From NCBI GenBank assembly GCA_016184125.1, contig JACPDG010000050.1:1-58623 (forward strand): a stretch of DNA of 58,623 bases. Direction: 5' to 3'. This document shows, piece by piece, positions 19,075 to 52,106 of this stretch. Each line of letters begins with the position of its first letter. The first letter of the stretch is position 1. The position numbers and the translations under genes are program-made. This stretch comes from Candidatus Rokuibacteriota bacterium. GTDB lineage: Bacteria; Methylomirabilota; Methylomirabilia; Rokubacteriales; CSP1-6. Under the pieces are notes generated by a model. That model saw nothing but the letters and a program-made list of their open reading frames with translations, did no database searches and was not told the origin of the DNA.

Positions 19075-19146
19075 CGAGGAGCGCCACGGGTCCCCCGGGG
19101 CGCTCCGAGCGCCGGGGGGTTTGGGGGGCTTCGATAGTCCCCCCAT
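19075..19146 (-). repeat. Modular hairpin repeat, copy R1
   Basis: Canonical copy of the dispersed element. Read on the minus strand it begins ATGGGGGGACTATCGAAGC, three bases after the TAG of the GntR gene, runs into a pyrimidine-rich stretch (AAACCCCCC) and ends in a second GC-rich hairpin (GGAGCGCC...GGGGCGCTCC). It separates the regulator from hyuA. There is no T-run, so it is not a typical intrinsic terminator. Confidence 0.85.
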
Positions 19147-19149
19147 TCC

Positions 19150-19875
19150 CTAGGTCCGGCGCTCGGGTCGTGAGAGGACGACGCGATACGGGTAGCGCCG
19201 CGTCGCCTGGTACGTCACCGCGTGCTCGACCGGCTCACCGCTGGCGGAGAAGTACGTCCGCTCGAACAGCAGGAGCGGCGTCCGCGGCCGGAGCTGCAGC
19301 AGCTCGGCGACGTGACGCGGCGCGAGCACGGCGTCGACGACCTGTTCCAGGAACTTCACCGTCACGTCCGTCTGCCGCTCGAGGGCGCCGACCAGGGACG
19401 TCTTCGACAGGTCCTCCTCTGACAGGGCCTCGGCGAGCTCCCGCTTCACGTAGGCCGTGACGTGCATGAACGGGCCGGTTTCCGCGTGGCGCACGCCGCT
19501 GACGCGGAAGGCCGACGAGCCGGGCGGCAGTCGCAGCGCCTGCGCGATGTTCGCCGGCACCGGCACGACCTCCCGGGACACGAGCTTGAACCAGGTCTCC
19601 TCGCCGAGCGCGATCATGTCGGCGACCGAGCCGATCACGCGCAGCCGCCGGTCGCCCCCCGGCGACGGCGTGCTGAACGTCCCGCGCCCGGCGTGCCGGT
19701 AGAGCCGTCCCTCCTGGACGAGGATGTCGAGCGCCTGGCGGACCGTCGGGCGGCTGACGCCGAACTGGGCGCATAGCTCGTGCTCCGACGGGATTCGCTC
19801 ACCCTCGCCCTTGAGTCCGTGGCGGATCGCGTCGGCGATCTGGATGTAGCGCGGGATACCTGGCTGAAAGTCCAC
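19150..19875 (-). CDS. GntR-family regulator, HutC/UTRA subfamily
   Basis: A 241-residue regulator starting with GTG 19875 with GCGAGG upstream. Residues 1-75 are the winged helix of the GntR family (PRYIQIADAIRHGLKGEGER, IPSEHELCAQFGVSRPTVRQ, ALDILVQEGRLYRHAGRGTF). The remainder is a UTRA ligand-binding domain (PFMHVTAYVKRELAEAL; LLLFERTYFSASGEPVEHAV), which places it in the HutC subfamily that senses small pathway metabolites. A perfect GTCTAGAC-core palindrome sits on its own promoter (see 19903-19939). It precedes hyuA-hyuB and the rest of the catabolic genes in the same direction, so it probably represses that block until substrate is present. Confidence 0.9.
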   Translation of the reverse strand: MDFQPGIPRYIQIADAIRHGLKGEGERIPSEHELCAQFGVSRPTVRQALDILVQEGRLYRHAGRGTFSTPSPGGDRRLRVIGSVADMIALGEETWFKLVSREVVPVPANIAQALRLPPGSSAFRVSGVRHAETGPFMHVTAYVKRELAEALSEEDLSKTSLVGALERQTDVTVKFLEQVVDAVLAPRHVAELLQLRPRTPLLLFERTYFSASGEPVEHAVTYQATRRYPYRVVLSRPERRT

Positions 19876-19902
19876 GGCGATTCGGCCTCGCAGGATCAGA
19901 GT

Positions 19903-19939
19903 TGTCTAGACACCTACCATCTGGCTGCCCGGCCGTCAA
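19903..19939 (-). promoter_or_regulatory. Promoter of the GntR gene with overlapping HutC-type operator
   Basis: On the minus strand: -35 TTGACG (plus 19934-19939), 17-base spacer, -10-like TAGGTG (19911-19916). The 10-bp palindrome TGTCTAGACA (19903-19912) overlaps the downstream edge of the -10 and the expected transcription start, 27 bases before GTG 19875. GTCTAGAC is the core of operators known for HutC-subfamily regulators such as DasR/NagR, so autorepression is the natural reading. Confidence 0.7.
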
Positions 19940-20003
19940 TCGTCTTGACCGCCGGGCGCAGAACCAGGTTCAGACCCCGTGGCCGCATCCGGTCGTCGAG
20001 CCG

Positions 20004-20148
20004 CGCCCCGGGTTCCACGGGTGCGTCCGCGCACCCCACGGGTGCGTCCGCGCACCCCCCGGGGCGCGTGCGAGCGCGGGGCCGGGGGAGCACGAGGGGG
20101 CGTGAGCCCCCTTCGTACGAGTGTCGGGGGCTTCGATAGTCCCCCCAT
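20004..20148 (-). repeat. Modular hairpin repeat, copy R2, with a 21-bp tandem duplicate inside
   Basis: On the minus strand it starts ATGGGGGGACTATCGAAGC eight bases after the acyl-CoA dehydrogenase stop. The distal part differs from R1: it has GGGGGCTCACGCCCCC and, at 20015-20035 and 20036-20056, two identical 21-base units that each contain the palindrome GGTGCGTCCGCGCACC. The same unit appears twice in copy R8 at 27597-27756. The rest of the 19913-20156 gap holds the GntR promoter and nothing else I recognise. Confidence 0.8.
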
Positions 20149-20156
20149 GATGACTG

Positions 20157-21314
20157 TCAGCCCCGCGCGCCGGCGCCGAGCTCACGCGCGATGACGAGGC
20201 GCTGCACCTGGTTGGTCCCCTCGTAGATCTGGGTGATCTTGGCGTCGCGCATCAAGCGCTCCACCGGGTACTCGCGCGTGTAGCCGTACCCGCCGAAGAT
20301 CTGCACCGCGTCCGTCGCCACCCGCATGGCGGAGTCGCTCGCGAAGCACTTGGCCATCGACGACTCGAGCGCGGTCGTCGGCGCGCCGCGGTCGATGGAC
20401 GCCGCGGCGTGGTGCACCATGAGCCGGGACGCGTGGACGTGCATGGCCATGTCGGCGAGCATGAACTGGACGCCCTGGAAGCTCGCGATCGGCTGGCCGA
20501 ACTGGTGCCGCTCGCGCGCGTAGGCCACCGCCGCGTCCAGCGCCGCCTGGGCGATGCCGGCCGCCTGCGCCGCGACGGCGGGACGCGACCGCTCCAGCGC
20601 CCCGAGCGCGAGCCGGAAGCCGTCGCCTTCCTCGCCGAGGCGGTTCTCGATCGGCACCTCGCAGTCCGTCAGGTGGATGGCGGCCGTCGGCGACCCGCGG
20701 ATGCCCATCTTCCGCTCGAGCTTGCCGATCGCGAATCCAGGGAAGGTCGGCTCCACGAGGAACGCGGTGATCCCGCGTCTGCCGCGGCCGCGATCGACCG
20801 TGGCGAAGACCGTCAGCACGCCCGCGTGGCTGCCGTTCGTCACCCACATCTTCGTGCCGCTCAGGAGGTAACGATCGCCGGCGCGAAGGGCCGTCGTCGC
20901 GATGCTCGCCGCGTCGGATCCCGCGCCCGACTCCGAAAGCGAGAACGCGGTCGTGATCTCGCCGGACGCGAGTCGTGGCAGGTACCGCCGCTTCTGGTCC
21001 TCGGTCCCGGCGACGACGAGCGGGTATCCCGCGGCGAACTGCACGAGGAAGACGACTGCGGTCGACGCGCACGCGCGCGCGATCTCCTCGACCGCGAGGC
21101 AGAAGCCGGTCACTCCGAGGTCCGTGCCGCCGTACGCTTCCGGGATCCAGAGGCCCATGACGCCCTGCTCGGCGAGGACCTTGAGCTGGTCGCCGGGATA
21201 GGCTTCCGTCTCGTCGACATGCGCGGCGAGCGGTTCGATGCGCTCTCGCGCGACCTGGCGGACGAGGTCGCGCAATGCCCGCTGGTCGTCGGTCAGCCAG
21301 AACTCGGGGTGCAC
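20157..21314 (-). CDS. Acyl-CoA dehydrogenase (second copy)
   Basis: A 385-residue acyl-CoA dehydrogenase, starting at GTG 21314 (HPEFWLTDDQRALRDLVRQV). It has a complete set of motifs: FSLSESGAGSDAASIATTAL, GTKMWVTNGSHAGVLTVFA, ARERHQFGQPIASFQGVQFM, FGGYGYTREYPVERLMRDAK and the catalytic glutamate in QIYEGTNQVQRLVIAREL. It resembles short/branched-chain enzymes more than the copy at 13787-14947. No ribosome binding site is visible, but a CATAAT box lies six bases before the GTG, so the mRNA may be leaderless. Confidence 0.9.
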   Translation of the reverse strand: MHPEFWLTDDQRALRDLVRQVARERIEPLAAHVDETEAYPGDQLKVLAEQGVMGLWIPEAYGGTDLGVTGFCLAVEEIARACASTAVVFLVQFAAGYPLVVAGTEDQKRRYLPRLASGEITTAFSLSESGAGSDAASIATTALRAGDRYLLSGTKMWVTNGSHAGVLTVFATVDRGRGRRGITAFLVEPTFPGFAIGKLERKMGIRGSPTAAIHLTDCEVPIENRLGEEGDGFRLALGALERSRPAVAAQAAGIAQAALDAAVAYARERHQFGQPIASFQGVQFMLADMAMHVHASRLMVHHAAASIDRGAPTTALESSMAKCFASDSAMRVATDAVQIFGGYGYTREYPVERLMRDAKITQIYEGTNQVQRLVIARELGAGARG

Positions 21315-21320
21315 GGACTC

Positions 21321-21384
21321 ATTATGCCGTGCACGTGGCCGCGGCGCGCGCGGATCGGCGTCCAACCGGTGACAAATTCTGTCA
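21321..21384 (-). promoter_or_regulatory. -10 box and TGACA-N5-TGTCA palindrome before the acyl-CoA dehydrogenase
   Basis: On the minus strand CATAAT (plus 21321-21326) is followed six bases later by GTG 21314. Further upstream, 21370-21384 reads TGACAAATTCTGTCA, a perfect 5-bp inverted repeat around five bases; a further TGTCA half-site lies near 21401. This could be the operator of a TetR- or FadR-like regulator. No good -35 is seen at the correct distance. Confidence 0.45.
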
Positions 21385-21682
21385 GCGTCGCTCGCCCGTC
21401 TGTCACCCGACGGACGGCATGCATCGCAAATCCGCGCCATGTTCGCGCCCGCGACCTGGCACCCACCCTGCAAAGTTTTTCCCACGAACCGGACGGCTCT
21501 GGCAGACGCGCCGCCCGCTCGGCTCGGTGCCTCGCGTGCGCGGTTCCCGTCGTGCGGACCGGCCTTCTCAGTTCTGAGGTCGGCCAGCTCTTCACCTCCC
21601 CGCTCTGCACCGCGGGGACGCCGGGGACCGCGCACCGCTCTGGGCCACCGGTCGGCGCGGGCGGCCGAAGTCTGTCTCTCAT
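21385..21682. other. Gene-free stretch between acyl-CoA dehydrogenase promoter and repeats R3/R4
   Basis: About 300 bases with no credible coding frame. I see CAAAGTTTTTCCCACG near 21470, the only T-rich spot, and otherwise GC-rich sequence without clear palindromes. It may contain a promoter for the plus strand, but no plus-strand gene follows. Its emptiness is unusual for this densely coded window and it could hold a small RNA or decayed gene that I cannot identify. Confidence 0.3.
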
Positions 21683-21782
21683 CATGGGGGGACTATCGAT
21701 GCCCCCCAAACCCCCCGCCGCGGCTCGGAAACGGCCCGGGAAACCCGGGCCGCTCCTCGGGCCACGGGATTCGCTCACGGCC
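21683..21782 (+). repeat. Modular hairpin repeat, copy R3
   Basis: Plus-strand orientation, beginning ATGGGGGGACTATCGATGCC and AAACCCCCC, followed by the apical hairpin CGGCCCGGGAAACCCGGGCCG and a tail GGGATTCGCTCACGG. The next copy R4 follows head-to-tail 108 bases later. The tail motif GATTCG(T/C)TCACGG also ends copies R4 and R9. Confidence 0.85.
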
Positions 21783-21790
21783 TCCGTCAT

Positions 21791-21890
21791 CATGGGGGGA
21801 CTATCGATGCCCCCCAAACCCCCCGCCCTCAGCGCCGTCCCGGGAAACCCGGGACGGCCCTCGATGACCCGATTCGTTCACGGGCTCGCG
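21791..21890 (+). repeat. Modular hairpin repeat, copy R4
   Basis: Tandem partner of R3: identical first 30 or so bases, then a different apical hairpin, GCCGTCCCGGGAAACCCGGG. Its tail GATTCGTTCACGGGCTCG ends two bases before the stop codon of the HpaB-like gene (21893). The hairpin stems differ between R3 and R4 while each remains self-complementary. Confidence 0.85.
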
Positions 21891-21892
21891 GT

Positions 21893-23338
21893 TCAGCTCC
21901 GCGGATCGAGATTCGCGCAGTCGGCGGCGAAGGCCTTCACCGCGCCCCCGTCGAAGCCCCTCAGGATCGTGATCTTCTGCGCTTCGAGCGATCCCTCGGC
22001 GTGAATCGCGAGCAGCTCGTGGTACCCGCCGAAGTCCGACGCGAAGTAGTCGCGGATCAGGTTGAAGAGCTTCAGCCGGTTGATCGAGCCGAACCCCTTC
22101 TTGCCGCCGAGGTACTGCTCGACGTAGTGCTTCGTCTCGGGGTTCTTCCAGTCGGCCTCGCTCGGCGCGGTCACGAGGAGCCCCCCCGCGATGTCCTGGA
22201 CCTTCTGGACCATCGCGTGATAGTTCTCCGCGAAGTACTGCTTCGCGATGTTCGTCACGGTCGTGTTGGGAACCGCGAGCCCGGCCTTCGTGGTGCACTC
22301 GTGCGCGGCGGCCACCGTGAGCGCGCGCACCGTCTCCCGGTACGCGATCAGCCGCGAGAGCTTCTCCCTCACGTGCGCCGCTTTCTCGATCCCGTTCGCC
22401 TCCGCCGCCAGCATCGCGCAGCCGATCATCAGGTCGAGCAGCGGCAGCTTGTACGAGATGGCGGTGAACCGGTGGTACTCCACGAAGCCGAGCGCGAGCG
22501 CGCCCGCGTACCGCGTTTCGCCGCAGAGGAACACGCGGTCCCAGGGCACGAAGACGTCGTCGAAGACGGTGAGCGTGTCGGCGATCTTGTGCCGCGACGA
22601 GACCGGGTGATCGAAGGGCGACGTCCCGCCGCCCGAGAACGGGCTCGCGATGAACTTGAGCCCGGGCGCGTTGCACGGGACGGCGAAGGAGACGGCGTAG
22701 GCGGCGTCGCGCTCGTCGAGCGCGCGGCACGGCAGCACGATGAGCTCGTCCGCGAAGATCGGGTTCGTGGTGTGCGCCTTGGCGCCCCGCACGACGATCC
22801 CGTCCTTCTGCCGGTCGACGACGCGCACGTAGTAGTCGGGATGCTCCTGGTCGGTCGGGCCGAGCGAGCGGTCGCCCTTGACGTCCGTCTGCGCGAGCCC
22901 CATGGCGAGATCGTTGTGGGCGACGTGCGTCCAGAACGCGTTGAGGCGCTCGTGGTACGGCGCCTCGAGCTGCTCCTGCATCGCTTTCGTGACGATGTGG
23001 GCGGCGGGCAGGAAGTCGGTGCCGATCTCGCGGATCAGCACGATCAACGCGCGGCCGGCACGCGTCGTCTCCGCGATCATCTCCCGGCGCTTGAGCAGAT
23101 CGCCGGCCGTGCGCGGGACGCGGTAGAAGCGGTTGACCGTGACGCCGTGCTCGTCCTCGGTGACCGCGAGCGTCCGGTGGTGGGGGTCGTCCGCGAACGA
23201 GTAGTCGATGGCGCAGTGCCGCGCCGCGCGCCCGAGGTCCGGGTGCGCCGTCACGTCGGCGACGCGCTCGCCCTTGTAGTAGACGGTGCGGCCGTCGCGG
23301 AGCGCGGCGAGGAACTGGTCAGCGGTTCTGAGCGCCAT
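21893..23338 (-). CDS. HpaB/4-hydroxybutyryl-CoA-dehydratase-superfamily flavoprotein
   Basis: A 481-residue protein of the 4-hydroxyphenylacetate 3-hydroxylase family. MALRTADQFLAALRDGRTVY, AHTTNPIFADELIVLP, HPVSSRHKIADTLTVFDDVF and VPWDRVFLCGE are family hallmarks. The related 4-hydroxybutyryl-CoA dehydratase binds a 4Fe-4S cluster by two N-terminal Cys, a His and a Cys; here the N-terminal region (IREIGTDFLPAAHIVTKAM) has no cysteines and the YHRFTAISYK segment has Tyr where Cys is expected, so a cluster-free, acyl-CoA-dehydrogenase-like or monooxygenase chemistry is more likely. No flavin reductase (HpaC) is adjacent. It overlaps the upstream dehydrogenase gene by 20 bases. Confidence 0.8.
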   Translation of the reverse strand: MALRTADQFLAALRDGRTVYYKGERVADVTAHPDLGRAARHCAIDYSFADDPHHRTLAVTEDEHGVTVNRFYRVPRTAGDLLKRREMIAETTRAGRALIVLIREIGTDFLPAAHIVTKAMQEQLEAPYHERLNAFWTHVAHNDLAMGLAQTDVKGDRSLGPTDQEHPDYYVRVVDRQKDGIVVRGAKAHTTNPIFADELIVLPCRALDERDAAYAVSFAVPCNAPGLKFIASPFSGGGTSPFDHPVSSRHKIADTLTVFDDVFVPWDRVFLCGETRYAGALALGFVEYHRFTAISYKLPLLDLMIGCAMLAAEANGIEKAAHVREKLSRLIAYRETVRALTVAAAHECTTKAGLAVPNTTVTNIAKQYFAENYHAMVQKVQDIAGGLLVTAPSEADWKNPETKHYVEQYLGGKKGFGSINRLKLFNLIRDYFASDFGGYHELLAIHAEGSLEAQKITILRGFDGGAVKAFAADCANLDPRS

Positions 23339-24182
23339 GGTCGTAGAACCCCTTGCCCGTCTTGCGGCCGAGGTGGCCGGCCATGACCATGCGCTTGAGC
23401 AGCGGCGGGGGCGCGTAGCGCGGCTCGCGGAACTCGTCGAACATCACCTCCGCGACGTACATCGTCGTGTCGAGGCCGACGAGGTCGAGCAGCGTGAACG
23501 GGCCCATCGGGTACCCGCAGCCGAGCTTCATCGCCTGGTCGATGTCCTCGATCGTCGCGAGACCGCCCTCGTAGACGCGGATGGCGTCGAGCAGGTACGG
23601 AACCAGCAGCCGGTTCACGATGAACGCCGTCGAGTCCTTCGCCTGCACGGGCACCTTGCCGGCCGCCTTGACCCACTCGGTCGCGGCGCGGGCCGCCTCG
23701 TCCTCCGTGAGGATCGTCCGCACGACCTCGACCAGCTTCATCAGCGGGACGGGGTTGAAGAAGTGCAGGCCGAGCACCTTGCCCGGACGCTTGGTCGCCG
23801 CGGCCATGGCCGTGACGTTGCACGACGAGGTGTTCGAGGCGAGCAGCGCGTGCGGCGGGCAGATGCGGTCGAGCTTCGCGAACGTCTCGTTCTTGAGCGC
23901 CTGGTTCTCGGTCATCGCCTCGACGACGAGGTCGCATCCCTTGAGATCCTCGAGCTTCACGGTCCCTGAGATGCGTCCCCACGTTGCGTCCCGCTGCTTC
24001 GCATCGATCTTCGCGCGCTCGACGAGGCCGTCGAGCGTCTGCTTCAGCTTTCCGAGGCCCCGCTGGAGGAGCTCGTCGTTCGCCTCGACCACGACCACCT
24101 GGAACCCGCCCTGGGCCGCGACCTGCGTGATGCCGGAGCCCATGAGACCGCAGCCGATGACTCCCACCGTCCTGATCGCCAT
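23319..24182 (-). CDS. 3-hydroxyacyl-CoA (3-hydroxybutyryl-CoA) dehydrogenase
   Basis: A 287-residue enzyme. ATG 24182 has GAGGGA five bases upstream and the protein begins at the Rossmann motif VGVIGCGLMGSGITQVAAQG. The catalytic pair and substrate loop are seen in LLASNTSSCNVTAMA, GLHFFNPVPLMKLVEVV and DSTAFIVNRLLVPYLLDA; the C-terminus has GCGYPMGPFTLLDLVGLDTT and GRKTGKGFYDHG. It oxidises 3-hydroxyacyl-CoA with NAD. The length is the usual 280-290 residues. Its 3' end overlaps the HpaB-like gene. Confidence 0.92.
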   Translation of the reverse strand: MAIRTVGVIGCGLMGSGITQVAAQGGFQVVVVEANDELLQRGLGKLKQTLDGLVERAKIDAKQRDATWGRISGTVKLEDLKGCDLVVEAMTENQALKNETFAKLDRICPPHALLASNTSSCNVTAMAAATKRPGKVLGLHFFNPVPLMKLVEVVRTILTEDEAARAATEWVKAAGKVPVQAKDSTAFIVNRLLVPYLLDAIRVYEGGLATIEDIDQAMKLGCGYPMGPFTLLDLVGLDTTMYVAEVMFDEFREPRYAPPPLLKRMVMAGHLGRKTGKGFYDHGAQNR

Positions 24183-24320
24183 GGTGTCCCTCGTGGAACG
24201 GCGCGGGCCGCGTGGACCGCGACCCGGACCGAAAGGCTCGTTGCGTGCCGCCGGCCCGGCAGCGGCGGCGGCTCGTAGTGCGCCGTCCCCGGCGGGCACG
24301 GGTTCTTCACGGAGATGCTC

Positions 24321-24845
24321 CTACTCGTAGACGATCAGCGAGTGCACGGGATGGCTCTTGATCTTGTCGCGCCCGTGCAGGAACCCGAGCTCGATCATGA
24401 AGGCGACCCCGACGACGTGCCCGCCAAGCTGCTCGATGAGTCTCAGGGTCGCAGCCATCGTCCCACCGGTGGCAAGCAGGTCGTCGACAGCGAGCACGCG
24501 CTGCCCCGGCTGGATCGCGTCCTCGTGCACGGCGAGCGCGTCCCGGCCGTACTCCAGCTCGTACTCCACCTCGATGGTCTTGCCCGGCAGCTTGCCCAGC
24601 TTGCGGACCGGGACGAACCCGGCACCGAGCTGATGCGCCAGCGCGCCCCCGAAGATGAAGCCGCGGGACTCGACGCCGACGACCACGTCGACCCGATCCT
24701 TCTGGTACCGGCGGGCGAGCAGGTCGATCACCGACCGGAACGCGGGCGCGTCCTTGAGCAGCGTCGTGATGTCCTTGAACAGCACCCCTTCGGTCGGGAA
24801 ATCCTTGATGTCGCGGATCTTGCCACGGAGCTCGGCGATGTCCAT
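24321..24845 (-). CDS. apt: Adenine phosphoribosyltransferase
   Basis: A 174-residue purine salvage enzyme making AMP from adenine and PRPP. IRDIKDFPTEGVLFKDITTL and VVGVESRGFIFGGALAHQLG are Apt hallmarks, and VLAVDDLLATGGTMAATLRL is the PRPP-binding motif. The start at ATG 24845 lies nine bases after a TAATAT -10 box, so the transcript may be nearly leaderless. It is a monocistronic housekeeping gene next to a divergent small secreted-protein gene. Confidence 0.95.
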   Translation of the reverse strand: MDIAELRGKIRDIKDFPTEGVLFKDITTLLKDAPAFRSVIDLLARRYQKDRVDVVVGVESRGFIFGGALAHQLGAGFVPVRKLGKLPGKTIEVEYELEYGRDALAVHEDAIQPGQRVLAVDDLLATGGTMAATLRLIEQLGGHVVGVAFMIELGFLHGRDKIKSHPVHSLIVYE

Positions 24846-24854
24846 AGGCGCCCT

Positions 24855-24884
24855 ATATTACCGGCACGCCGCGCGACGGCACAA
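24855..24884 (-). promoter_or_regulatory. Promoter of apt
   Basis: Minus strand: TTGTGC (plus 24879-24884), 18-base spacer, TAATAT (24855-24860), then nine bases to ATG 24845. The close spacing to the start leaves room for at most a few untranslated bases. Confidence 0.6.
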
Positions 24885-25042
24885 GAACGGTCCCCATTGT
24901 TCTCTGCAGCTCGGTGCAGCATTTCGAGCCCACGCCTGCGCACCGCCCTTCGCGAACGCCGCAGAAAGCGGGGCATTGTCGGAACTTCAGGCGCGGCACG
25001 CACTTTGACTCTCTTGCCCGGCAGGAAAGGAGGTCTCGGCAG

Positions 25043-25411
25043 ATGCGCCTTAAGACCATCGCAGCTCTCGCACTCGGAACGGTCGTGTTCGTGGCCCCCC
25101 AAGCGTTCGCCATGGGTGGTGGTGGCGGCGGCGGCGGCGGGAACGGCACGTCCTCGAACGGCAGCGGCGGGACCACGGTCGTCTCGTCGAGCACCGGTGG
25201 GAACGGCACGTTCACGTACAGCGGAACGGTCTCGAACGGCGTGCTCTCGGGGACATTCACTGGAGGAAGCGGCTCGGGCGGTTATACCGGTGACCTGACC
25301 GGTGGCACGTTCAACGGGACGTACCGGCTCAACGCGGCCGAGCCATTCACGACGTTGGCCCTCGGTCTCGGGCTCCTCGGCGCGGGCTACCTGCGCCGGC
25401 GGCGCCGGTAA
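25043..25411 (+). CDS. Small glycine-rich secreted protein with PEP-CTERM-like tail
   Basis: A 122-residue protein. ATG 25043 is chosen because a full AAAGGAGGT ribosome site ends eight bases upstream. Residues 1-23 (MRLKTIAALALGTVVFVAPQ then AFA) are a Sec signal peptide. The body is Gly/Ser/Thr repeats with polyglycine. The C-terminus has the three-part sorting plan of PEP-CTERM proteins: AEP, a hydrophobic helix (FTTLALGLGLLGAGYL) and an arginine cluster RRRRR; the Pro-Glu-Pro core is reduced to Ala-Glu-Pro. Such tails are processed by an exosortase and the proteins go to the cell surface or biofilm matrix. No exosortase gene is in the window. Confidence 0.75.
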   Translation: MRLKTIAALALGTVVFVAPQAFAMGGGGGGGGGNGTSSNGSGGTTVVSSSTGGNGTFTYSGTVSNGVLSGTFTGGSGSGGYTGDLTGGTFNGTYRLNAAEPFTTLALGLGLLGAGYLRRRRR

Positions 25412-25421
25412 CTCATGGAGT

Positions 25422-25450: not shown

Positions 25451-25501
25451 CTCCTGGTCGTCCCGACTCCCGCGCTCAGCGCTCGTGAACGCATCGGGTG
25501 G

Positions 25502-25668
25502 TCGAGGAGCGCCACGGCTGTGCCGGCCCGCTTCCGAGCGCCGGGGGCGCCGCGTGACGTTCGCCCTCCCGTTCGCTGAGTGAACTCGAGGAGCGCCACG
25601 GCTGTGCCGGGGCGCTCCGAGCGCGGGAGGCGCCGCGTGACGTTCGCCCTCCCGTTCGCTGAGTGAAC
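25502..25668. repeat. Two tandem units (84 and 83 bp) related to the hairpin repeat
   Basis: Each unit starts TCGAGGAGCGCCACGGCTGT, forms the same second hairpin as copies R1 and R14, and then ends with GCGCCGCGTGACGTTCGCCC and TCCCGTTCGCTGAGTGAAC instead of the usual ATAGTCCCCCCAT end. Unit 1 is 25502-25585 and unit 2 is 25586-25668; a third, standard-ended unit (R7) follows directly. This shows that the element is built of exchangeable halves. The remaining gap bases, 25451-25501, show nothing else. Confidence 0.8.
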
Positions 25669-25743
25669 TCGAGGAGCGGCCCGGGTCCCCCGGGCCGCTT
25701 CCGAGCGCGGGGGGGTTTGGGGGGCCATTTCGGGGCCCCCCAT
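25669..25743 (-). repeat. Modular hairpin repeat, copy R7
   Basis: Minus-strand orientation: ATGGGGGGCCCCGAAATGGC then AAACCCCCC, four bases after the stop of the HAD gene (25748), followed by hairpin GCGGCCCGGG...CCCGGGCCGC. This is the CCCCGAAATGG variant of the first hairpin, also seen in R8, R9, R10 and R13. Confidence 0.85.
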
Positions 25744-25747
25744 GATC

Positions 25748-27581: not shown

Positions 27582-27781
27582 ACTCCTGGCCTTCACGGTG
27601 TGGGGGGCCCCGAAATGGCCCCTGACCATCGCACGAAGGGGGCTAACGCCCCCCTCGGGCTCCCCCGGCGCCGACGCTCGGAGCGCCCCCGGGGGGGTGC
27701 GCGGACGCACCCGTGGTGCGCGGACGCACCCGCGAGACCCGTGGCGCTCCTCGATTTCTCCGATATACTCCTGGCCTTCAC
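27572..27781 (-). repeat. Hairpin repeat R8 bracketed by a 25-bp direct duplication
   Basis: The 160-base element 27597-27756 carries the CCCCGAAATGG-type hairpin, GGGGGCTAACGCCCCC, two GGTGCGTCCGCGCACC-type palindromes shared with R2, and GAGGAGCGCCACGG at its far end. It is flanked by a 25-base direct repeat, 27572-27596 and 27757-27781, identical at 23 positions. The repeat spans the start region of the rhodanese gene and, in the other copy, the stop codon of the hydrolase gene. The simplest reading is insertion with duplication of an original 11-base operon junction. Confidence 0.8.
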
Positions 27782-30739: not shown

Positions 30740-30822
30740 CATGGGCGGCCCCGACATGGCCTCCCGCCCCCCCGCGCTCGCCGGGCCCGGGGTGAACCCG
30801 GTTACGCTTCGATTCACCCCTG
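30740..30822 (+). repeat. Modular hairpin repeat, degenerate copy R10
   Basis: CATGGGCGGCCCCGACATGG followed by a C-run, then a second stem CGGGCCCGGGGTGAACCCGG. The first hairpin has mismatches relative to R9, so this copy looks older. It overlaps the end of the AI-2E-type permease pseudogene. Confidence 0.65.
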
Positions 30823-38394: not shown

Positions 38395-38472
38395 GAACCC
38401 GAGGCGCGGCCCGGGTCCCCCGGGCCGCGTCCGAGCGTTGGGGGGCTTGGGGGGCTTCGATAGTCCCCCCAT
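38395..38472 (-). repeat. Modular hairpin repeat, copy R12
   Basis: Minus-strand orientation, ATGGGGGGACTATCGAAGCC ending at 38472, with apical hairpin GCGGCCCGGG...CCCGGGCCGC on its left side. It lies between the zinc-ribbon gene and the lytic transglycosylase gene, about 45 bases after the former's stop. Confidence 0.85.
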
Positions 38473-45399: not shown

Positions 45400-45404
45400 G
45401 GGAG

Positions 45405-45488
45405 ATCATGGGGGGCCCCGACATGGCCCCCCAAACCCCCCAGCGTTCGCCGGGCCCGGCTCGACACGCCGATTCGTTCACGGGCTCG
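45405..45488 (+). repeat. Modular hairpin repeat, copy R9
   Basis: Seven bases after the TPR stop: ATGGGGGGCCCCGACATGGC, then AAACCCCCC, a short second stem GCCGGGCCCGGC and the tail GATTCGTTCACGGGCTCG shared with R4. An open frame continues from inside the repeat into the next gene, but the repeat is unlikely to be coding. Confidence 0.85.
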
Positions 45489-45494
45489 GAGTCC

Positions 45495-46133
45495 GTGTTG
45501 GCCGAACGGTTCAGCTTCGAGGCGACCGCACGGGGCGTGCGGCGCGTCCGATTCGACGCCGGCGCCGACGTCGTGGCGCGCGGCGGCCGCCGCCACGTCG
45601 AGCGCGCGCGCCGCGAGCTGGCCGAATACCTCCGCGGGGAACGCAGCTACTTCTCGGTGCCGCTCGACCTCGGGGAGCTGCCACCGTTTCAGGCCACGGT
45701 GCTCGCCCAGGCGAGGCGCATCCGGTTCGGCGACGTCGACTCGTACGCGGCGATCGCGCGCCGCATCGGGCACCCGCATGCCGCCCGGGCGGTCGGCAAC
45801 GCGCTCGGTGCGAATCCGGCGCCGATCCTCGTTCCGTGCCACCGCGTCGTCCGCAGCGACGGCACGTGGGGCCACTTCGCCTTCGGCGGCGCGATGAAGA
45901 CGGCGCTGCTCGCGCTCGAGCGTGCGACGCCGGCGCTGGTCGGTTCCACGACGACGCGCATCGCCTGCTGGCGCGGGTGCCCGCACGAGCGGCGGATCCG
46001 CGGCGATCGGCGCGTGACCTTCAGGTCCTCCGCAGACGCGCGGCGCGCCGGCTACCGTCCTTGCCGCGTGTGCTGCCCGGACCCGCTCAGCGGGCCGCAG
46101 CAGCGACGAGCCGACGATCGGAGTCGTACCTGA
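45495..46133 (+). CDS. Methylated-DNA cysteine methyltransferase fused to a C-terminal Ada zinc domain
   Basis: A 212-residue protein; GTG 45495 is the first start after repeat R9, though no ribosome site supports it. Residues about 55-150 are the Ogt domain: FQATVLAQARRIRFGDVDSY, AARAVGNALGANPAPIL and the alkyl-acceptor Cys in VPCHRVVRSDG. Residues about 155-200 match the Ada metal-binding domain: TTTRIACWRGCPHERRIRGD and ARRAGYRPCRVCCPDP, keeping the C-x3-C and C-x2-C zinc cysteines of Ada (Cys38, 42, 69, 72). In Ada the order is the reverse, zinc domain first. No AraC domain is present, so it is a repair enzyme that might also take up methyl groups from phosphotriesters. Confidence 0.8.
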   Translation: MLAERFSFEATARGVRRVRFDAGADVVARGGRRHVERARRELAEYLRGERSYFSVPLDLGELPPFQATVLAQARRIRFGDVDSYAAIARRIGHPHAARAVGNALGANPAPILVPCHRVVRSDGTWGHFAFGGAMKTALLALERATPALVGSTTTRIACWRGCPHERRIRGDRRVTFRSSADARRAGYRPCRVCCPDPLSGPQQRRADDRSRT

Positions 46134-46506
46134 GGAGCGCGTCGGCCTCCTCGAGGCTGACCCAGCGCACCTCGTCGACCTCGTGGTCGTGCTCGCCCTC
46201 CTTCTCGAGGGGGCGCATGAGGAACCAGCTGACCGTCTTGCGGATGCGCTCGCCCTCCCGCTGGAACCAGTACGTCACCGGCTCCAGTTCCTGCACGACC
46301 TCGCACCTGTAGCCGGTCTCCTCCCGCACCTCGCGCAGCGCCGCGGCCTCGCTCGACTCGCCGCGCGCCAGCGCCCCCTTCGGGAGGGTCCAGACCGGGC
46401 GGTTCCGCAGGTCGCGGGCACGGATCAGGAGCACGTTGCCCTGCCCGTCCAGGACGAGACCGCCGGCGGAGAACTGGTACTGGGCGCGCAGGCGTCGCTC
46501 GGGCAC
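46087..46506 (-). CDS. NUDIX hydrolase
   Basis: A 139-residue NUDIX protein from GTG 46506. The box is GALARGESSEAAALREVREE followed by TGY, a full GX5EX7REUXEEXGU. YQFSAGGLVLDGQGNVLLIR at the start and SWFLMRPLEKEGEHDHEVDE later resemble MutT/AP4A-type members that cleave nucleoside diphosphate linkages. A TATCAT box lies seven bases before the start. Its 3' end overlaps the methyltransferase gene tail-to-tail by 47 bases. Confidence 0.9.
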   Translation of the reverse strand: MPERRLRAQYQFSAGGLVLDGQGNVLLIRARDLRNRPVWTLPKGALARGESSEAAALREVREETGYRCEVVQELEPVTYWFQREGERIRKTVSWFLMRPLEKEGEHDHEVDEVRWVSLEEADALLRYDSDRRLVAAAAR

Positions 46507-46538
46507 GCCTTCGATGATACGCGACGCGCATCGAGGTC

Positions 46539-46567
46539 CTGACAGTTCGGCAGCTCCGGCATAGAAT
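46539..46567 (+). promoter_or_regulatory. Promoter of the DinG-like helicase gene
   Basis: CTGACA (46539-46544), exact 17-base spacer, TAGAAT (46562-46567), then 11 bases to ATG 46579 with no ribosome binding site between. This is the best sigma70-type promoter in the window. It lies back-to-back with the NUDIX promoter. Confidence 0.7.
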
Positions 46568-46578
46568 CACTCCACCGC

Positions 46579-48219
46579 ATGGGCGTCGACCTGCTCCGGC
46601 ACTTCCCCGAGGGATTCGCGCCGCGTCCGGCACAGGCGCGACTGCTGGAGGAGCTCGGGGCCGCGCTCGAACGCGCCGAGCAGGACCCGAAAGCGCCGCG
46701 CGTGTTCTTCGTCGAGGCGCCACCCGGTGTCGGGAAGAGCCACGTCGCGATGACGCTCGCCCGGTGGAGCGGCCGCGCGTACCTGCTCACCTCGCAAAAG
46801 CTCCTGCAGGACCAGTACGAGCGGGAGTTCGGCGGCCACGTGCAGCTCGTGAAGGGGCGCGACAGCTATGCCTGCGAGCGCTATCCCGACCGTCGCGTCC
46901 CGACGACGTTCGGCATGTGTCGCCGGCCCGGCGGTCCCCCGTGCCAGTGCCCGTACACGCGCGCCAAAGCCGCGGCCCTCGCCGGTCGCATCTTCTGCAC
47001 GAACACGTGGTATTTCCTCACGCTCCGCCAGTGGCGCCGGGAGCAGCTCGAGCGCCGCCGGCTGCTGATCGTCGACGAGGCCCACAACCTCGAGGCGCAG
47101 CTCGCGAGCGTGTTCACGCTCGCGGTGCCGCGGGAGCAGATGGTCCGCTGGTTCGGCACGCCCGTTCCCCGGTACGACACGGCCGAGGAGTACCGCGCGC
47201 TGTTCGCGGAGCAGATCGCCGGGCTCGAAGCCGAGATCGCCCTCGTCGAGAGCGATCTCGAGGCGGTCCGCGTGCCGACGCTGCCCCTCGAGGAGTTCCT
47301 GCGGCTGCCGCCGTCCCCGCACGAGGCCGCGCTCCTGTCCGCGCGCGAGACGCTCGAGACGGCGCTCGCGCGGCTCAGGTTCTTCGTGGAGGCGGAGGAG
47401 CAGGAGTGGGTGGTGCGCTCGACCGCGACCCCGGACGGCCCCGTCGAGCTCGTTCCCCTGTCCGTCGCACCGATGGCGGCCGAGCTGCTCTTCGACGCCG
47501 CGGATCTCGCCGTGCTGACGTCGGCCTTCCTCGGGCACCGCGCCGCGCTCGCCGAGTCTCTCGGCCTCGACGTCGCCACGACACAAACGGTGCGAGCGGG
47601 CTCTCCGTTCCCCCTCGAGCAGCGCCCGATCGTCTACCGTCCGCGCGGTGCCCTGTCGCGCGCCACGCTGGCGGAACTCGAGCCCGCGGTGTTCGCCGAG
47701 GTCGCCGGCATCCTGCGTGCGCACCCGCGCGACAAGGGTGTGATCCACGTGCCGTCGTACGCGGCCGCGCACCGGCTGGTGGCCGACGTCGCGCGCCGGG
47801 CCCCGATCGAGCATCGACGGCTCCTGCCGATCGCCACGCCGGAAGCCAAGCCCGCGGCACTCGGACACCACCGCGCGTCGCGCCTCGCGACGGTGCTCGT
47901 GTCACCGTCGCTCAGAGAGGGCGTCGATCTCCCCGACGACCTGCTGCGATTCCAGATCGTCACGAAAATGCCGTTCCCGGACCTCGGCGATCCATGGACC
48001 GCGGCACGCGCCCGACGCGACCCTCGCTGGTACGCGCTGGAGACGGCGAAGTCCCTCGTGCAGACGTACGGGCGGTCGTGCCGTCACGCGGGCGATCGGG
48101 GCGTCACGTACGTGCTGGACGGTCAGTTCGCACGCTTCCTGCTCCGCTACCGTCCGCTGCTGCCGGCGTGGTTTCTCGACGCGGCAGCGCCTGCGCTGCG
48201 GGCGGCGAAGCGCGTCTAG
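46579..48219 (+). CDS. dinG: DinG/XPD-like superfamily 2 DNA helicase
   Basis: A 546-residue helicase. Walker A FFVEAPPGVGKSHVAMTLAR, motif Ia LLTSQKLLQDQYERE, DEAH box LLIVDEAHNLEAQLAS and C-terminal motif VQTYGRSCRHAGDRGVTYVL are clear. Between motif Ia and DEAH four cysteines (YACERYP, GMCRRPGGPPCQCPY) match the 4Fe-4S domain of XPD/DinG. Motif IV-V is LATVLVSPSLREGVDLPDDL. It unwinds DNA 5' to 3', typically resolving R-loops or damaged structures. It lacks the exonuclease domain of some Gram-positive DinG. Shorter than E. coli DinG (716). Confidence 0.88.
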   Translation: MGVDLLRHFPEGFAPRPAQARLLEELGAALERAEQDPKAPRVFFVEAPPGVGKSHVAMTLARWSGRAYLLTSQKLLQDQYEREFGGHVQLVKGRDSYACERYPDRRVPTTFGMCRRPGGPPCQCPYTRAKAAALAGRIFCTNTWYFLTLRQWRREQLERRRLLIVDEAHNLEAQLASVFTLAVPREQMVRWFGTPVPRYDTAEEYRALFAEQIAGLEAEIALVESDLEAVRVPTLPLEEFLRLPPSPHEAALLSARETLETALARLRFFVEAEEQEWVVRSTATPDGPVELVPLSVAPMAAELLFDAADLAVLTSAFLGHRAALAESLGLDVATTQTVRAGSPFPLEQRPIVYRPRGALSRATLAELEPAVFAEVAGILRAHPRDKGVIHVPSYAAAHRLVADVARRAPIEHRRLLPIATPEAKPAALGHHRASRLATVLVSPSLREGVDLPDDLLRFQIVTKMPFPDLGDPWTAARARRDPRWYALETAKSLVQTYGRSCRHAGDRGVTYVLDGQFARFLLRYRPLLPAWFLDAAAPALRAAKRV

Positions 48220-48220
48220 A

Positions 48221-48293
48221 GCCGGGCCCGGGTTCATCCCGGGCCCGGCGAACGTTGGGGGGTGTGGGGGGCCATTTCGGGGCCCCCCACACG
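48221..48293. repeat. Modular hairpin repeat, copy R13, between convergent genes
   Basis: GCCGGGCCCGGG/CCCGGGCCCGGC around TTCAT, then GGGGGGCCATTTCGGGGCCC and CCCCACAC. It fills the entire gap between the DinG stop (48219) and the FAD-dehydrogenase stop (48295), so it may serve as a two-way transcript end. The ATG at the end of the first hairpin is replaced by GTGTG, as in copy R8. Confidence 0.8.
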
Positions 48294-48294
48294 G

Positions 48295-49773
48295 TCAACG
48301 CGACGGCTCCGCCGCAGACCGCCCGGCGATGCGGCCCAGGACCGACCCGGCCATCAGGCCGGTGCCGCCCGGGTAGTTGTTGTAGAACAGCCCCCCCACG
48401 AGCTCGCCGCACGCGTAGAGACCGGCGATCGGGTGCTGCTCGCAGTCGATCACCTGGGCCTGCTGGTCGATCCTGAGCCCGCCGAACGTGAACGTGATGC
48501 CGGTCGTGACCGCGAAGCCGAGGTACGGCGGCGTGTCGATCGGCTGCGCCCAGTTCGACTTCGGCGGCGTGATGCCCTTCGTGCCCTTGCCGTCCTTCAC
48601 CGCCGGGTTGAACGGCGCTGGCTGGACCGCCGCGTTGAACTCCCGCACCGTCCTCACGAAGCCGCCGACGTCGATCTCGAGCTTCTCCGCCAGCTCCTCG
48701 GGCGTGCTCGCCTCGGCCTTCGTCACCTCGCGGATGCGGTACTCCTCGCGCAGCAGGTGCACGACCTTCTGGTCGAAGATCTGGAACGCGGCCCGGCGCG
48801 GCTGGTGGATGACTTCCTTGCCGTACTTCACGTATGTGTAGTTGCGGAAGTCGGCGCCCTCGTCGACGAACCGCTGTCCGTGGATGTTCACGATGATCCC
48901 GACCGGATACGAATGCTTCTGGAAGTTGTCGCCGACCTTCCGGTCACCGTGCCACGGCGCGTTCAGGTCCCACTGCACGGAGTGACAGCCGCTCCAGTGG
49001 CCCCACGGCTGCGCGCCCACGTCGAGCGCCATGCGGATGCCGTCGCCCGTGTTGTACGGCGTGCCGCGCACGCGCGCCATGTCCCAGTTCGGCCCGAGGT
49101 ACCGCGTGCGCATCTCGACGTTCGCCTCGAACCCGCCCGCCGCGAGCACGACGGCCCCGGCCGGAATCGTTTCCAGGCCGTTCGCGGTGCGCAGAACGAC
49201 GCCGGTGACGGCCCCCCGATCGTCCGTGACCAGGCGCATGACCTTGGTCTCGAATCGCACGTCGATGCCCGCCTTCGCGGCCGACGCGTACGCCATCTCG
49301 ATGAGACCTGGCCCGCCACCGACGGCCTCGAGCACGAGGCCGCCCCAGAAGTGGAACTTCCCCTCGACCTTGTACGCCTGGCGCCCGAACATCGGGATCC
49401 AGCGGATGCCGCGCGCCTTCATCCAGCGTATGGTCGCCTGCGACTCGCGGACGACGAGCATCGCGAGATCGGGATCCGCGAGGTCCTCCGTGACGCGCAT
49501 GATGTCGTCGTAGAAGTCGTCCTCGGTGTACGGGTTGACGACCATGGACGCGGCTTCCTCGTCCGACATGTCGGCGACGATCTCGCGCAGCTCCTCGAAG
49601 CTCTTGAACGCGAAACGGAAGCCGCCGGCCGTGAAGAAGCCGTTGCCGCCGCGCCACGCCTCCGGCGCCTTCTCGCACACGAGGACGGTGGCGCCCTGCT
49701 CGCGCGCCGACAGCGCGGCGCACATGCCGGCGTTGCCGCCGCCGATCACGACCACGTCGTAGCGTGTCGTCAT
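48295..49773 (-). CDS. FAD-dependent fumarate reductase/tricarballylate dehydrogenase-like flavoprotein
   Basis: A 492-residue flavoprotein. VVVIGGGNAGMCAALSAREQ binds FAD, GFFTAGGFRFAFKSFEELRE and VVLAAGGFEANVEMRTRYLG are typical of the TcuA/fumarate-reductase group, as are IVNIHGQRFVDEGADFRNYT, VTTGITFTFGGLRIDQQAQV and YNNYPGGTGLMAGSVLG near the end. Such enzymes oxidise tricarballylate or reduce ene-acids, or act as 3-ketosteroid dehydrogenase relatives. No TcuB electron-transfer gene is adjacent. The ATG overlaps the stop of a 27-residue mini-ORF (ATGA). Confidence 0.85.
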   Translation of the reverse strand: MTTRYDVVVIGGGNAGMCAALSAREQGATVLVCEKAPEAWRGGNGFFTAGGFRFAFKSFEELREIVADMSDEEAASMVVNPYTEDDFYDDIMRVTEDLADPDLAMLVVRESQATIRWMKARGIRWIPMFGRQAYKVEGKFHFWGGLVLEAVGGGPGLIEMAYASAAKAGIDVRFETKVMRLVTDDRGAVTGVVLRTANGLETIPAGAVVLAAGGFEANVEMRTRYLGPNWDMARVRGTPYNTGDGIRMALDVGAQPWGHWSGCHSVQWDLNAPWHGDRKVGDNFQKHSYPVGIIVNIHGQRFVDEGADFRNYTYVKYGKEVIHQPRRAAFQIFDQKVVHLLREEYRIREVTKAEASTPEELAEKLEIDVGGFVRTVREFNAAVQPAPFNPAVKDGKGTKGITPPKSNWAQPIDTPPYLGFAVTTGITFTFGGLRIDQQAQVIDCEQHPIAGLYACGELVGGLFYNNYPGGTGLMAGSVLGRIAGRSAAEPSR

Positions 49774-49853
49774 GACTGGTGGATGACCTCGCTGATCTGG
49801 AGCTCGGGGGTGATGTTCGTGAAGCTCGGGTACATGACGGACACACGAATCAT
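49770..49853 (-). pseudogene. 27-residue EthD-family stub fused from both protein ends
   Basis: ATG 49853 with GGGGAGGTC upstream encodes 27 residues: the first nine, MIRVSVMYP, are the usual EthD N-terminus, and the rest, FTNITPELQISEV and HQS, looks like the EthD C-terminus (typically ..P.FTDI.PVIQISEV). The 70-75 residues in between, carrying the ferredoxin-like core, are missing, in frame. The TGA overlaps the flavoprotein ATG. It has an intact promoter and ribosome site, so it is probably still translated and may now serve to couple translation. Confidence 0.5.
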
Positions 49854-49887
49854 GGCGGACCTCCCCGGCTGCGCTGCCGGTGCGCTC

Positions 49888-49917
49888 ACGCTAAGCGGTG
49901 GGCGGATACGGTGTCAA
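49888..49917 (-). promoter_or_regulatory. Promoter of the EthD stub / FAD dehydrogenase operon
   Basis: Minus strand: perfect TTGACA (plus 49912-49917), 18-base spacer, TAGCGT (49888-49893), then about 28 bases of leader with a ribosome site before ATG 49853. The opposite strand of this 203-base gap must also hold the promoter of the E1 gene at 50057; I could not pick it out. Confidence 0.55.
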
Positions 49918-50056
49918 GCGAGCGCGCTCACCGTGCGGCGGCGTGGGGTGTCCGGCCCAGGTCGTGGTTGATCGGCACCCCCGTCCTGCCGTACCTTCGC
50001 GGGACACGGCGTTGTCATCGAACCCGACACCCTCGCGACAGGAGCACACCCGCGCC

Positions 50057-52024
50057 ATGACGCTGACCGGCGACGTCCTCGAGAGCTTCTACACGACCAT
50101 GGTGAAGATCCGGCGCTTCGACGAGCGGACGACCGAGATGTTCAACCAGGGACTGGTCAAGGGCACGGCGCACAGCTACGTCGGCGAGGAGGCGGTGGCG
50201 GCCGGCGCATGCGCGGCTCTCCGGCAGGAGGACTTCATCGTCGGCAACCACCGCGGCCACGGTCACTGCATCGCGAAGGGCGCCCGCACCGACCTGATGA
50301 TGGCGGAGCTGCTGGGACGGCAGGACGGCTACTGCCGCGGCCTCGGCGGCTCGATGCACATCGCGGCCCTCGAACTCAACATCCTCGGCTGCAACGGCAT
50401 CGTGGGCGCCGGGCTCCCGATCGGCACCGGCGCGGCGCTCGCCGCGAGCATCCGCCGGACCGACCAGGTCGTGATCATCTTCTTCGGCGACGGGGCCTCG
50501 AACCAGGGCGTCGTGCACGAGTCGCTCAACCTCGCTGCGGTGTGGACGCTGCCGGTCATCTTCCTGTGCGAGAACAACCAGTACGCGCTCTCGACCGCGA
50601 CGCGGCGCACGACCGCCGGCGAATCGATCGCGTTGCGCGCCACCCCGTATGGCATCCCCGGTGTTCGCGTCGACGGCAACGACGTGCTCGCCGTCCACGA
50701 GGCGGTGCGCACAGCCGCCGCGCGGGCGCGCGCGGGTCAGGGCCCGACGCTCATCGAGGCCCTGACGTACCGCTGGGGCGATCACTCGATGCGCGCGAAC
50801 TTGCCCGCGTATCGCACGAAGGACGAGGAGCGCGAGTGGATCGAGCGCGATCCCGTGGCGCGCTTGCGGAGCTCGCTCCTCGACGGCGGACACGCCCCGC
50901 CGCTCCGGCTCAAGGAGCTCGAGGAGTCCGTCGAGCTCGAGCTGGACCAGGCGCTGGCCTTCGCGCAGGCGAGCCCGGAGCCGAGCGTCGAGCTGATGGA
51001 CGCGGCGGTCTCTATCCCGACGCCCTCGATCCCGGAGCCGCCGCTGGCGACGACGCGCGAGGTGACGATGGTGCAGGCGCTCAACGAGGCGCTCGCCCAC
51101 GAGATGGCGCGGGACGAGCGCGTGTTCCTGATGGGCGAGGACGTGGGGCTCATCGGGGGGATCTTCGGCGTGTCGCGGGGGCTGCGCGAGCGGTTCGGCG
51201 AGGACCGCGTGCGCGACACGCCGATCTCGGAAGCGACGTTCGTCGGCGCCGGTGTCGGCGCGGCGATCGCCGGCCTCCGCCCCGTCGTCGAGGTCCAGAT
51301 CTTCGACTTCGTCGCGCTCGCGATGGACCAGATCGTGAACCAGGCGGCGAAGTTCCGCTTCATGCTCGGCGGCAAGCCGACCGTGCCGCTCGTGATTCGC
51401 GGACCGCAGGGTGGCGGCATCCGCCTCGCCGCGCAGCACTCCCAGAGTCTCGAGGCGTGGTTCGTCCACGTGCCCGGGCTCGTCGTCGTGGCGCCCTCGT
51501 CGCCTGCGGATGCCAAGGGCCTCCTGATCTCCGCGATCCGCGACGACAACCCGGTCATCTTCCTCGAGCACAAGGCCCTCTACGCCGTGAAGGGGCCGGT
51601 GCCCGAGCAGGCGTACGCGATCCCGATCGGCCGCGCGGCGGTGAAGCGGGAAGGCAGGGACGTGACCGTCGTCGCGACGCAGGCGATGGTGGCGCGCGCG
51701 CTCGCCGCGGCCGCGGAGCTCGACAAGGACGGCATCAGCGTCGAGGTCATCGATCCGCGGACGCTCGTCCCGCTCGACGAGGCGACGATCCTCGCCTCGG
51801 TCCGCAAGACGCACCGGCTCGTCGTCGCGCACGAGGCGGTGAAGCGCGGCGGCTTCGGCGCGGAGATCGCGGCGCTCGTGGCCGAGCAGGCGCTCGAGGA
51901 CCTCGATGCGCCGATCGTCCGCGTGGCCGGCCGTGCGAATCCCATGCCGTACAACGACGGGCTCGAGCGCGCGACCGTCCCCACGCAGCAGGACATCGCC
52001 GCGGCCATCCGCGGCCTCATGTGA
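50057..52024 (+). CDS. Fused E1 alpha-beta subunits of a 2-oxoacid/acetoin dehydrogenase
   Basis: A 655-residue thiamine-diphosphate enzyme. Residues 1-320 are E1 alpha: [40 protein letters not shown] and the ThDP motif [20 protein letters not shown] with CENNQYA. Residues 335-655 are E1 beta: [60 protein letters not shown] and [20 protein letters not shown]. In most bacteria the two chains are separate. No lipoyl E2 or E3 gene is adjacent, so partner proteins are encoded elsewhere or the enzyme acts alone. The ribosome site (AGGAG) is rather far, about 14 bases before the ATG. Confidence 0.9.
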
Positions 52025-52031
52025 GCAGGCG

Positions 52032-52106
52032 GCTCGAGGAGCGCCACGGCTGTGCCGGGGCGCTGCCGAGCGCGGGGGGCTTGGGGGGCTTCGATAGTCC
52101 CCCCAT
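52032..52106 (-). repeat. Modular hairpin repeat, copy R14
   Basis: GCTCGAGGAGCGCCACGGCT, GTGCCGGGGCGC, then GGGGGGCTTCGATAGTCCCC and CCAT. Nearly the same as R1. It begins eight bases after the E1 stop and ends 20 bases before the next ATG, leaving just a ribosome site in between. Confidence 0.85.

Follow-up and report, generated by a model that had tools for sequence, protein, structure and literature searches.

Bipartite palindromic repeats dispersed between the genes of Rokubacteria, a probably mobile family not tracked by RAYT transposases

Contig JACPDG010000050.1 of a Candidatus Rokuibacteriota bacterium (GenBank assembly GCA_016184125.1), analysed here over its 58,623 nucleotides (nt; hereafter the window), belongs to a draft genome of 4.09 Mb (G000; G001 is a same-genus genome and the other G numbers are relatives) and carries between its genes a GC-rich repeat built of two hairpins. 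The unit spans ~75 bases and reads [N]ATGGGGGG - loop - CCCCCC - ANA - CCCCCC - n - CGCTCG[G/C]A - stem 2 - loop - stem 2' - [C/G]CTCG[A/G], that is, a G6/C6 hairpin (the head), a second C-run and a hairpin 2 lying between CTCG repeats, with a tail such as CGATTCGTTCACGGGCTC often found on its 3' side. The head loop is either ACTATCGAWG (type A) or CCCCGAMATGG (type B). The window holds six A heads (19143, 20145, 21687, 21795, 38469 and 52103) and five B heads (25740, 27603, 30744, 45411 and 48287), along with two further units with a GGGAGG-type third head at ~25499-25665, and two hairpins are recognisable in nearly all of these units. The motif ATGGGGGG occurs nine times in the window against 1.09 expected, a count reached in none of 100 shuffles, and an Rfam search of the window at the gathering score returned no match. 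The copies are the following.

19071-19147, minus strand: copy 1, head A with hairpin 2 (GAGCGC stem), a covariance-model match; its G-run starts 6 nt after the TAG of a GntR-type gene (19150-19875)
19996-20148, minus strand: copy 2, head A, with a long hairpin insert and the TGCGCGGACGCAC hairpin nested twice in the hairpin 2 loop
21684-21760, plus strand: copy 3, head A with hairpin 2, in tandem with copy 4
21792-21864, plus strand: copy 4, head A with hairpin 2, followed by the tail CGATTCGTTCACGG
25499-25665, minus strand: two tandem units with the third head (GAACGGGAGGGC...GGCGCC) and hairpin 2
25666-25743, minus strand: copy 5, head B with hairpin 2, a covariance-model match
27600-27754, plus strand: copy 6, head B, with a long insert and the TGCGCGGACGCAC hairpin nested twice in the hairpin 2 loop
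30740-30812, plus strand: copy 7, a degenerate head B (two mismatches) with an imperfect hairpin 2
38396-38472, minus strand: copy 8, head A with hairpin 2 (GCGCGG stem), a covariance-model match
45408-45464, plus strand: copy 9, head B with a short hairpin 2, followed by the tail CGATTCGTTCACGG
48217-48290, minus strand: copy 10, head B; its right end, CTCTAG, overlaps the TAG stop of a plus-strand gene ending at 48219
52031-52106, minus strand: copy 11, head A with hairpin 2, a member of the covariance alignment

A unit is thus present at every place listed by the first-pass annotation, which had been made from the letters of the window alone, and its description of both orientations, of a changing but self-complementary hairpin 2, of the tail and of a missing T-run was borne out. 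Its observation that certain copies begin 3-8 bases after a stop codon holds only in part: the G-run lies 6 nt (19143) or 7 nt (25740 and 48287) after a same-strand stop, whereas the distance is 11 nt at 20145 and 45411, and for the copy at 30744 no same-strand gene was called upstream. Likewise, the two-hairpin build ascribed to every copy applies to most of them, but the second hairpin is degenerate or short at 30740 and 45405, and those at 20004 and 27597 have additional hairpins: a long insert separates hairpin 1 from hairpin 2, and TGCGCGGACGCAC lies in the hairpin 2 loop. The nested TGCGCGGACGCAC hairpin recurs in 26 of 74 A copies and 15 of 71 B copies, and in some copies a further hairpin, GTACGAAGGGGG...CCCCCCTCGTAC, stands between hairpins 1 and 2. 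The third head type is joined to the usual second hairpin both in the window and in a few more units elsewhere, which suggests that heads are exchangeable. A fourth head (GGGGACCCCGGAGGGGTCCCC), again with the usual CGCTCGG second hairpin, lies at G000:C11:40559-40830, and the same gap of G001 contains a B copy.

Genome-wide pattern searches allowing up to two mismatches recovered 304 A heads, 406 B heads and 297 matches to ATGGGGGGACTATCGA in G000, with none for any of the three reversed patterns, and the A and B matches are split about equally between the two strands; up to ~700 copies per genome are therefore present in a likely Rokubacteria family. Copy numbers given here are head-pattern counts, those from the covariance model being lower bounds (the best 150, 83 or 50 matches were scored). 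Within the family, 49 of 56 genomes (G000 included) have B heads, and these span 20 of its 24 genera; counts per genome range from 0 to 452, against a total of two matches to the reversed pattern in all 56; seven genomes, G000 and six relatives, have at least 100. A covariance model built from 64 copies matches 45 of 57 family genomes at E <= 0.001 and, at E <= 1e-6, 40 of 57 in the family, one of three in other families of the order and none of 35 elsewhere in the class. All named records with a 46-base B-type string are Candidatus Rokuibacteriota metagenome-assembled genomes (MAGs; five stretches in four MAGs), the exact B head had no match in the viral contigs searched, and one 86-base copy had none in the plasmids and phages searched. 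The A head is nearly private to G000, with a single two-mismatch match in each of two of 59 relatives and none in the two same-genus genomes, and is a private amplification of the G000 lineage.

Occupancy of individual gaps was followed in the parts of the two genomes read in detail, 824 kb of the 4.09 Mb of G000 (189 copies) and 719 kb of the ~5.6 Mb of G001 (66 copies), on contigs picked via earlier hits or known numbers. Between fmt and rsmB, the 106-nt gap of G000 contains one complete antisense B copy, and no element was detected in the same gap of 29 relatives, either with the head pattern at up to four mismatches or with the covariance model (the end of fmt being unreadable in one of them, L123); in about seven relatives the two genes overlap by 4 nt. 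Three genomes of genus g4 (L124, L127 and L128) have a different GC-rich hairpin in this gap, perhaps another repeat family. The gap upstream of fmt, after a gene which we take to be def, is occupied by a full copy in G001; in G017 (L146) only a head hairpin, lacking hairpin 2, stands there immediately 3' of the stop codon. G000 and G001 share 31 adjacent gene pairs, of which 23 are free of the element (a by-eye look through these, covering every gap of at least 45 nt, found no further unit), three have it only in G000, two only in G001 and three in both, so that five of the eight filled gaps are filled in one genome only. Even the shared gaps differ: in one of them the G000 head has diverged and in another the G000 unit sits elsewhere in the gap. 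One gap (G000:C11:10625-10886; G001:C4:47708-47892) carries a copy in antisense orientation in G000 as well as in G001, but the head is of type A in one genome and of type B in the other; the site may have received two separate insertions, or the head may have been replaced where it stood. Since occupancy differs between relatives, copies come and go by lineage; the filled and empty orthologous sites, together with a head type present at ~300 copies in one lineage only, support the mobile nature that the first-pass annotation had considered possible.

The fold of hairpin 2 is maintained while its sequence changes. The alignment behind the model comprises 64 of 81 standard copies among the 189 (regular length, at most one head mismatch, 32 A and 32 B taken at random), a choice that favours well-formed stems, and in it the 12 pairs of hairpin 2 are formed in 96.8% of cells against 77.8% after shuffling. 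Both sides have changed in eight of the 12 pairs (117 cells against 33.5 shuffled), and the covariation score is 0.391, against 0.078 for shuffled and 0.019-0.066 for slid alignments, in agreement with the covariation anticipated from the window. The changes are confined to a few positions and define discrete stem types, GAGCGC (52), CCGCGC (16), GGCCGT (14), GAGCGG (8), GCGCGG (8) and rarer ones, as typed in 145 of the 189 copies, 123 of them with the closing arm. In the 23 tandem pairs, neighbours share the head type in 21 cases and differ in stem 2 type in 15, the stem being the same in eight (0.186 expected for random pairs); with 15 of 23 pairs unlike in stem, stem 2 changes after duplication. 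In stems that could be parsed for mismatches (148 of 189 in G000, 54 of 66 in G001), all 11 pairs are intact in 82 and 17, respectively; of the mismatched cells, 36 of 78 in G000 and 27 of 50 in G001 are C.T at the same fixed pair.

Placement relative to genes is equally non-random. In G000, where the gene caller assigns 85-90% of each contig to coding sequence, 160 of the 189 copies fall outside genes, and 13 of the 29 heads inside called genes are at most 110 nt from the called 3' end. With hundreds of copies in G000, mostly outside genes and with covarying stems, the opposite case, in which there would be no further copies or copies equally common inside genes and devoid of covariation, is excluded. 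Copies occupy 102 of 581 co-directional, 17 of 70 convergent and five of 71 divergent gaps in G000 (co-directional vs divergent, p 0.026; convergent vs divergent, p 0.005), and 37 of 541, 10 of 86 and one of 86, respectively, in G001 (p 0.048 and 0.009 vs divergent). Copies in co-directional gaps face either way at similar frequency (sense 55, antisense 47 in G000; 14 and 23 in G001). With the element edge placed 5 nt ahead of the G-run, sense copies begin a median of 3 nt after the stop codon, and within 10 nt of it in 41 of 55 gaps in G000 and 13 of 14 in G001, a 3'-end bias; of 39 sense copies that leave 60 nt or more of the gap free, 25 lie within 10 nt of the stop and one lies that close to the next start. 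Antisense copies lie within 10 nt of the stop in 10 of 47 cases in G000 and five of 23 in G001, but the tail after hairpin 2 is uncounted here, so that their distance from the stop is overstated; the tail itself ends 4-5 nt from the stop in seven antisense rows, representing five places, and the antisense head is near the next start codon in 17 of 47 and 10 of 23 cases. A pyrimidine precedes the abutted stop in 37 of 43 cases in G000 (28 C, 9 T; 280 of 724 for all genes) and in 16 of 19 in G001 (312 of 722 for all genes), so that sense heads sit directly 3' of YTGA or YTAG. A bias with respect to replication strand, with 74 of 183 copies on the G-rich strand in G000 (p 0.012) and 32 of 60 in G001, was inconsistent and was set aside.

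The 3'-end bias of sense copies and the avoidance of divergent gaps would also be expected if the repeat were a cis-acting RNA element at mRNA 3' ends, acting in stability, processing or Rho-dependent termination, with copies kept for their effect on the transcript. The covariation of hairpin 2, the three conserved gaps filled in both genomes and the strong folding of the unit on both strands (z -1.4 to -3.8 in eight sequences) are compatible with such a role. Sense and antisense copies are nevertheless nearly equal in number, their positions differ between relatives, and G.T mismatches, which RNA tolerates, are rarer than A.C (2 vs 17 in G000, whichever the gene orientation, and 3 vs 6 in G001; these counts are not independent and provide a hint only). 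Moreover, TTTT does not occur within 12 nt after hairpin 2 on the top strand (0/182) or after the head on the bottom strand (0/182), which, together with the even orientation and the presence of copies within gene pairs such as fmt-rsmB, makes an intrinsic terminator unlikely, as the first-pass annotation had held. Overall, we consider it unlikely that an RNA function explains the family, and an RNA effect on flanking genes is possible and compatible with mobility.

A second alternative is a miniature inverted-repeat transposable element (MITE) moved by a DDE transposase with a short target duplication of the YTNAR type. The insertion between fmt and rsmB and that upstream of fmt can both be read with TGA on either side, and the sequence after the tail is often CTGA or CTCA. 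Across isolated copies with a recognisable tail, however, flanks are shared at three bases in 13 cases against 12.6, and at four bases in six against 5.5 or 3.3, depending on the offset; a weak excess appears at five bases (4 vs 1.4, p 0.037; 3 vs 0.9, p 0.05). In another comparison of flanks, the matches at 7-8 bases (12 vs 5.7 and 7 vs 2.1) derive largely from repeated tails. Right-hand TGA is independent of left-hand TGA (6 of 21 vs 7 of 30), and the by-eye impression of TGA at both ends fell away on shuffling at 3-4 bases. The ends show no terminal inverted repeats by eye, as judged without alignment. A DDE-driven element of this kind is accordingly quite improbable.

The search for a driving enzyme bears on a third alternative, an ordinary repetitive extragenic palindromic (REP) family moved by a REP-associated tyrosine transposase (RAYT; Y1 transposase) that is missing from the assemblies. 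The RAYTs believed to mobilise known REPs recognise hairpins with a GTAG foot and cut at CT (PMC8266576; PMC2817692). The copy number, extragenic placement and preserved palindromes are REP-like (PMC2817692 and PMC3733652), cleavage by TnpA_REP at CT (PMC8266576) recalls the CT that precedes the stop in many sense copies, and the Y1-positive G004 carries 53 B heads. Yet Y1_Tnp is found in 11 of the 56 family genomes and is absent from six of the seven richest genomes (100 B heads or more), the median number of B heads being six with Y1_Tnp and 11 without (p 0.2). The seventh is G000, whose only match is a fragment of 61 residues located at one end of a 4.2-kb contig devoid of copies, and GTAG is present within 7-9 nt of the hairpin foot, on either strand, in only two of 182 copies. 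The RAYT link that the first-pass annotation had put forward as a sign of a REP-like element thus finds no support, and RAYT as the driver is rejected on present data because its presence does not track copy number; a family of this conventional kind is very unlikely. The fragment itself (L052, G000:C45, 4,151 bases; 3635-4151, near the contig edge) is the C-terminal part of an IS200/IS605-like TnpA (Y1_Tnp positions 61-121), lies beside an CCCCCCAATAAATTGGGGGG hairpin, is in frame with unrelated sequence, and is either an insertion sequence remnant or a misassembly.

Two other candidates were rejected: the IS91-type Y2_Tnp, in 26 of 56 genomes, is missing from five of these seven copy-rich genomes, and RVT_1, in 19 of 56 (18 over the cut-off), from four of them. 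An autonomous copy was sought among the genes with elements on both sides (17 in G000 and one in G001, over 1.54 Mb); these share no family, and inspection of the first 60 residues of the 18 revealed no transposase. Nor is there a fixed CGTC tag, CGTC lying near the hairpin foot, on either strand, in 30 of 182 copies; CGTC-tagged REPs have been described as having no dedicated transposase (PMC3733652; Di Nocera et al., 2013). Finally, nearly all genomes involved are multi-contig draft assemblies, but an assembly or binning artefact is practically discounted by the independent recovery of matches in 49 of 56 separate assemblies and by copies located inside long contigs beside ordinary genes in the two genomes read in detail.

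Given that Y1_Tnp, Y2_Tnp and RVT_1 do not track the copies and that no fixed tag is present, the repeat is best viewed as a non-autonomous palindrome presumably recognised by its fold and served by another enzyme. We thus regard it as probable that it constitutes a RAYT-independent mobile palindrome family of ~75 bp, mostly intergenic and moved by an enzyme other than those three. Several points weigh against this interpretation. The searches for Y1_Tnp, Y2_Tnp and RVT_1, other transposase families not being searched, yielded no driving enzyme, and MAGs are incomplete, so that an absent transposase may simply be unassembled. No target-site duplication emerged from the 51 isolated copies with a recognisable tail, and YTGA or YTAG is weak before antisense heads (10 of 64 against 1-6 in windows further upstream). 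The three of eight filled conserved gaps that are filled in both genomes allow for old, maintained sites; the choice of stem depends on the head (chi-square p 1e-4 over five types, with CCGCGC in 16 copies with A and none with B), hence the modules are not freely exchanged; and the covariation could also come from arm-to-arm correction without selection. The placement statistics, furthermore, depend on genes called with a home-made codon-usage caller.

In the mobile, RAYT-independent family that we favour, an enzyme would drive insertion, with the folded single-strand hairpin as its predicted substrate; selection against damage to coding sequences and promoters would leave copies between a stop codon and the next gene, and compensatory changes in the stems would be kept because fold rather than sequence matters. 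A tentative extension, possible but still speculative, is that an enzyme outside the known transposase classes reads the fold of hairpin 2 and not its letters, so that stems drift among a set of self-complementary types under an unchanging head, and that insertion is aimed at pyrimidine-stop sites, thereby seeding gene 3' ends throughout the family.

Searches of the open full-text literature on Rokubacteria and Methylomirabilota (subscription papers not covered) listed no title on such repeats, and the family adds a REP-like population in a group for which these searches listed no earlier description. Because the accepted REP driver does not track these repeats, the question of what moves orphan REPs becomes concrete and testable, with dozens of genomes of graded copy number available for it, and the changing stem of hairpin 2 provides a ready-made set of variants with which to ask whether a nuclease recognises the fold or the letters.

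Comparison with known systems places the repeat among high-copy palindromes, with features of its own. Intrinsic terminators place a GC hairpin right after stop codons, as does the Rokubacteria repeat just 3' of them, but the latter has no T-run, occurs in both orientations and is also found in operon-like pairs such as fmt-rsmB. MITEs are non-autonomous, 70-300 bp long and gene-proximal. The repeat resembles them in its lack of autonomy, size and proximity to genes (in part after PMC3733652), and differs by the lack of terminal inverted repeats to the eye and of a demonstrated target duplication. Bacterial interspersed mosaic elements (BIMEs) similarly combine hairpin modules into mosaics and tandem arrays; however, they consist of alternating inverted REPs, whereas the Rokubacteria units are arranged head-to-tail and contain two different hairpins. 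CGTC REPs are, according to PMC3733652, likewise high-copy palindromes without a dedicated transposase, unlike which the unit described here is bipartite and has no fixed tag. GTAG REPs and the hairpin-forming REP doublets (REPINs) are the closest in genomic behaviour: as described in PMC2817692 and PMC3733652, they too are short extragenic palindromes at high copy number (for the present repeat, at least 100 B heads in G000 and six relatives), form clusters, lie between co-directional or convergent and rarely divergent genes, often end at stop codons, and keep their palindromes by complementary changes. The Rokubacteria repeat departs from them in having neither a GTAG foot nor a tracking RAYT, and in joining two dissimilar hairpins, a constant head and a switching second stem.

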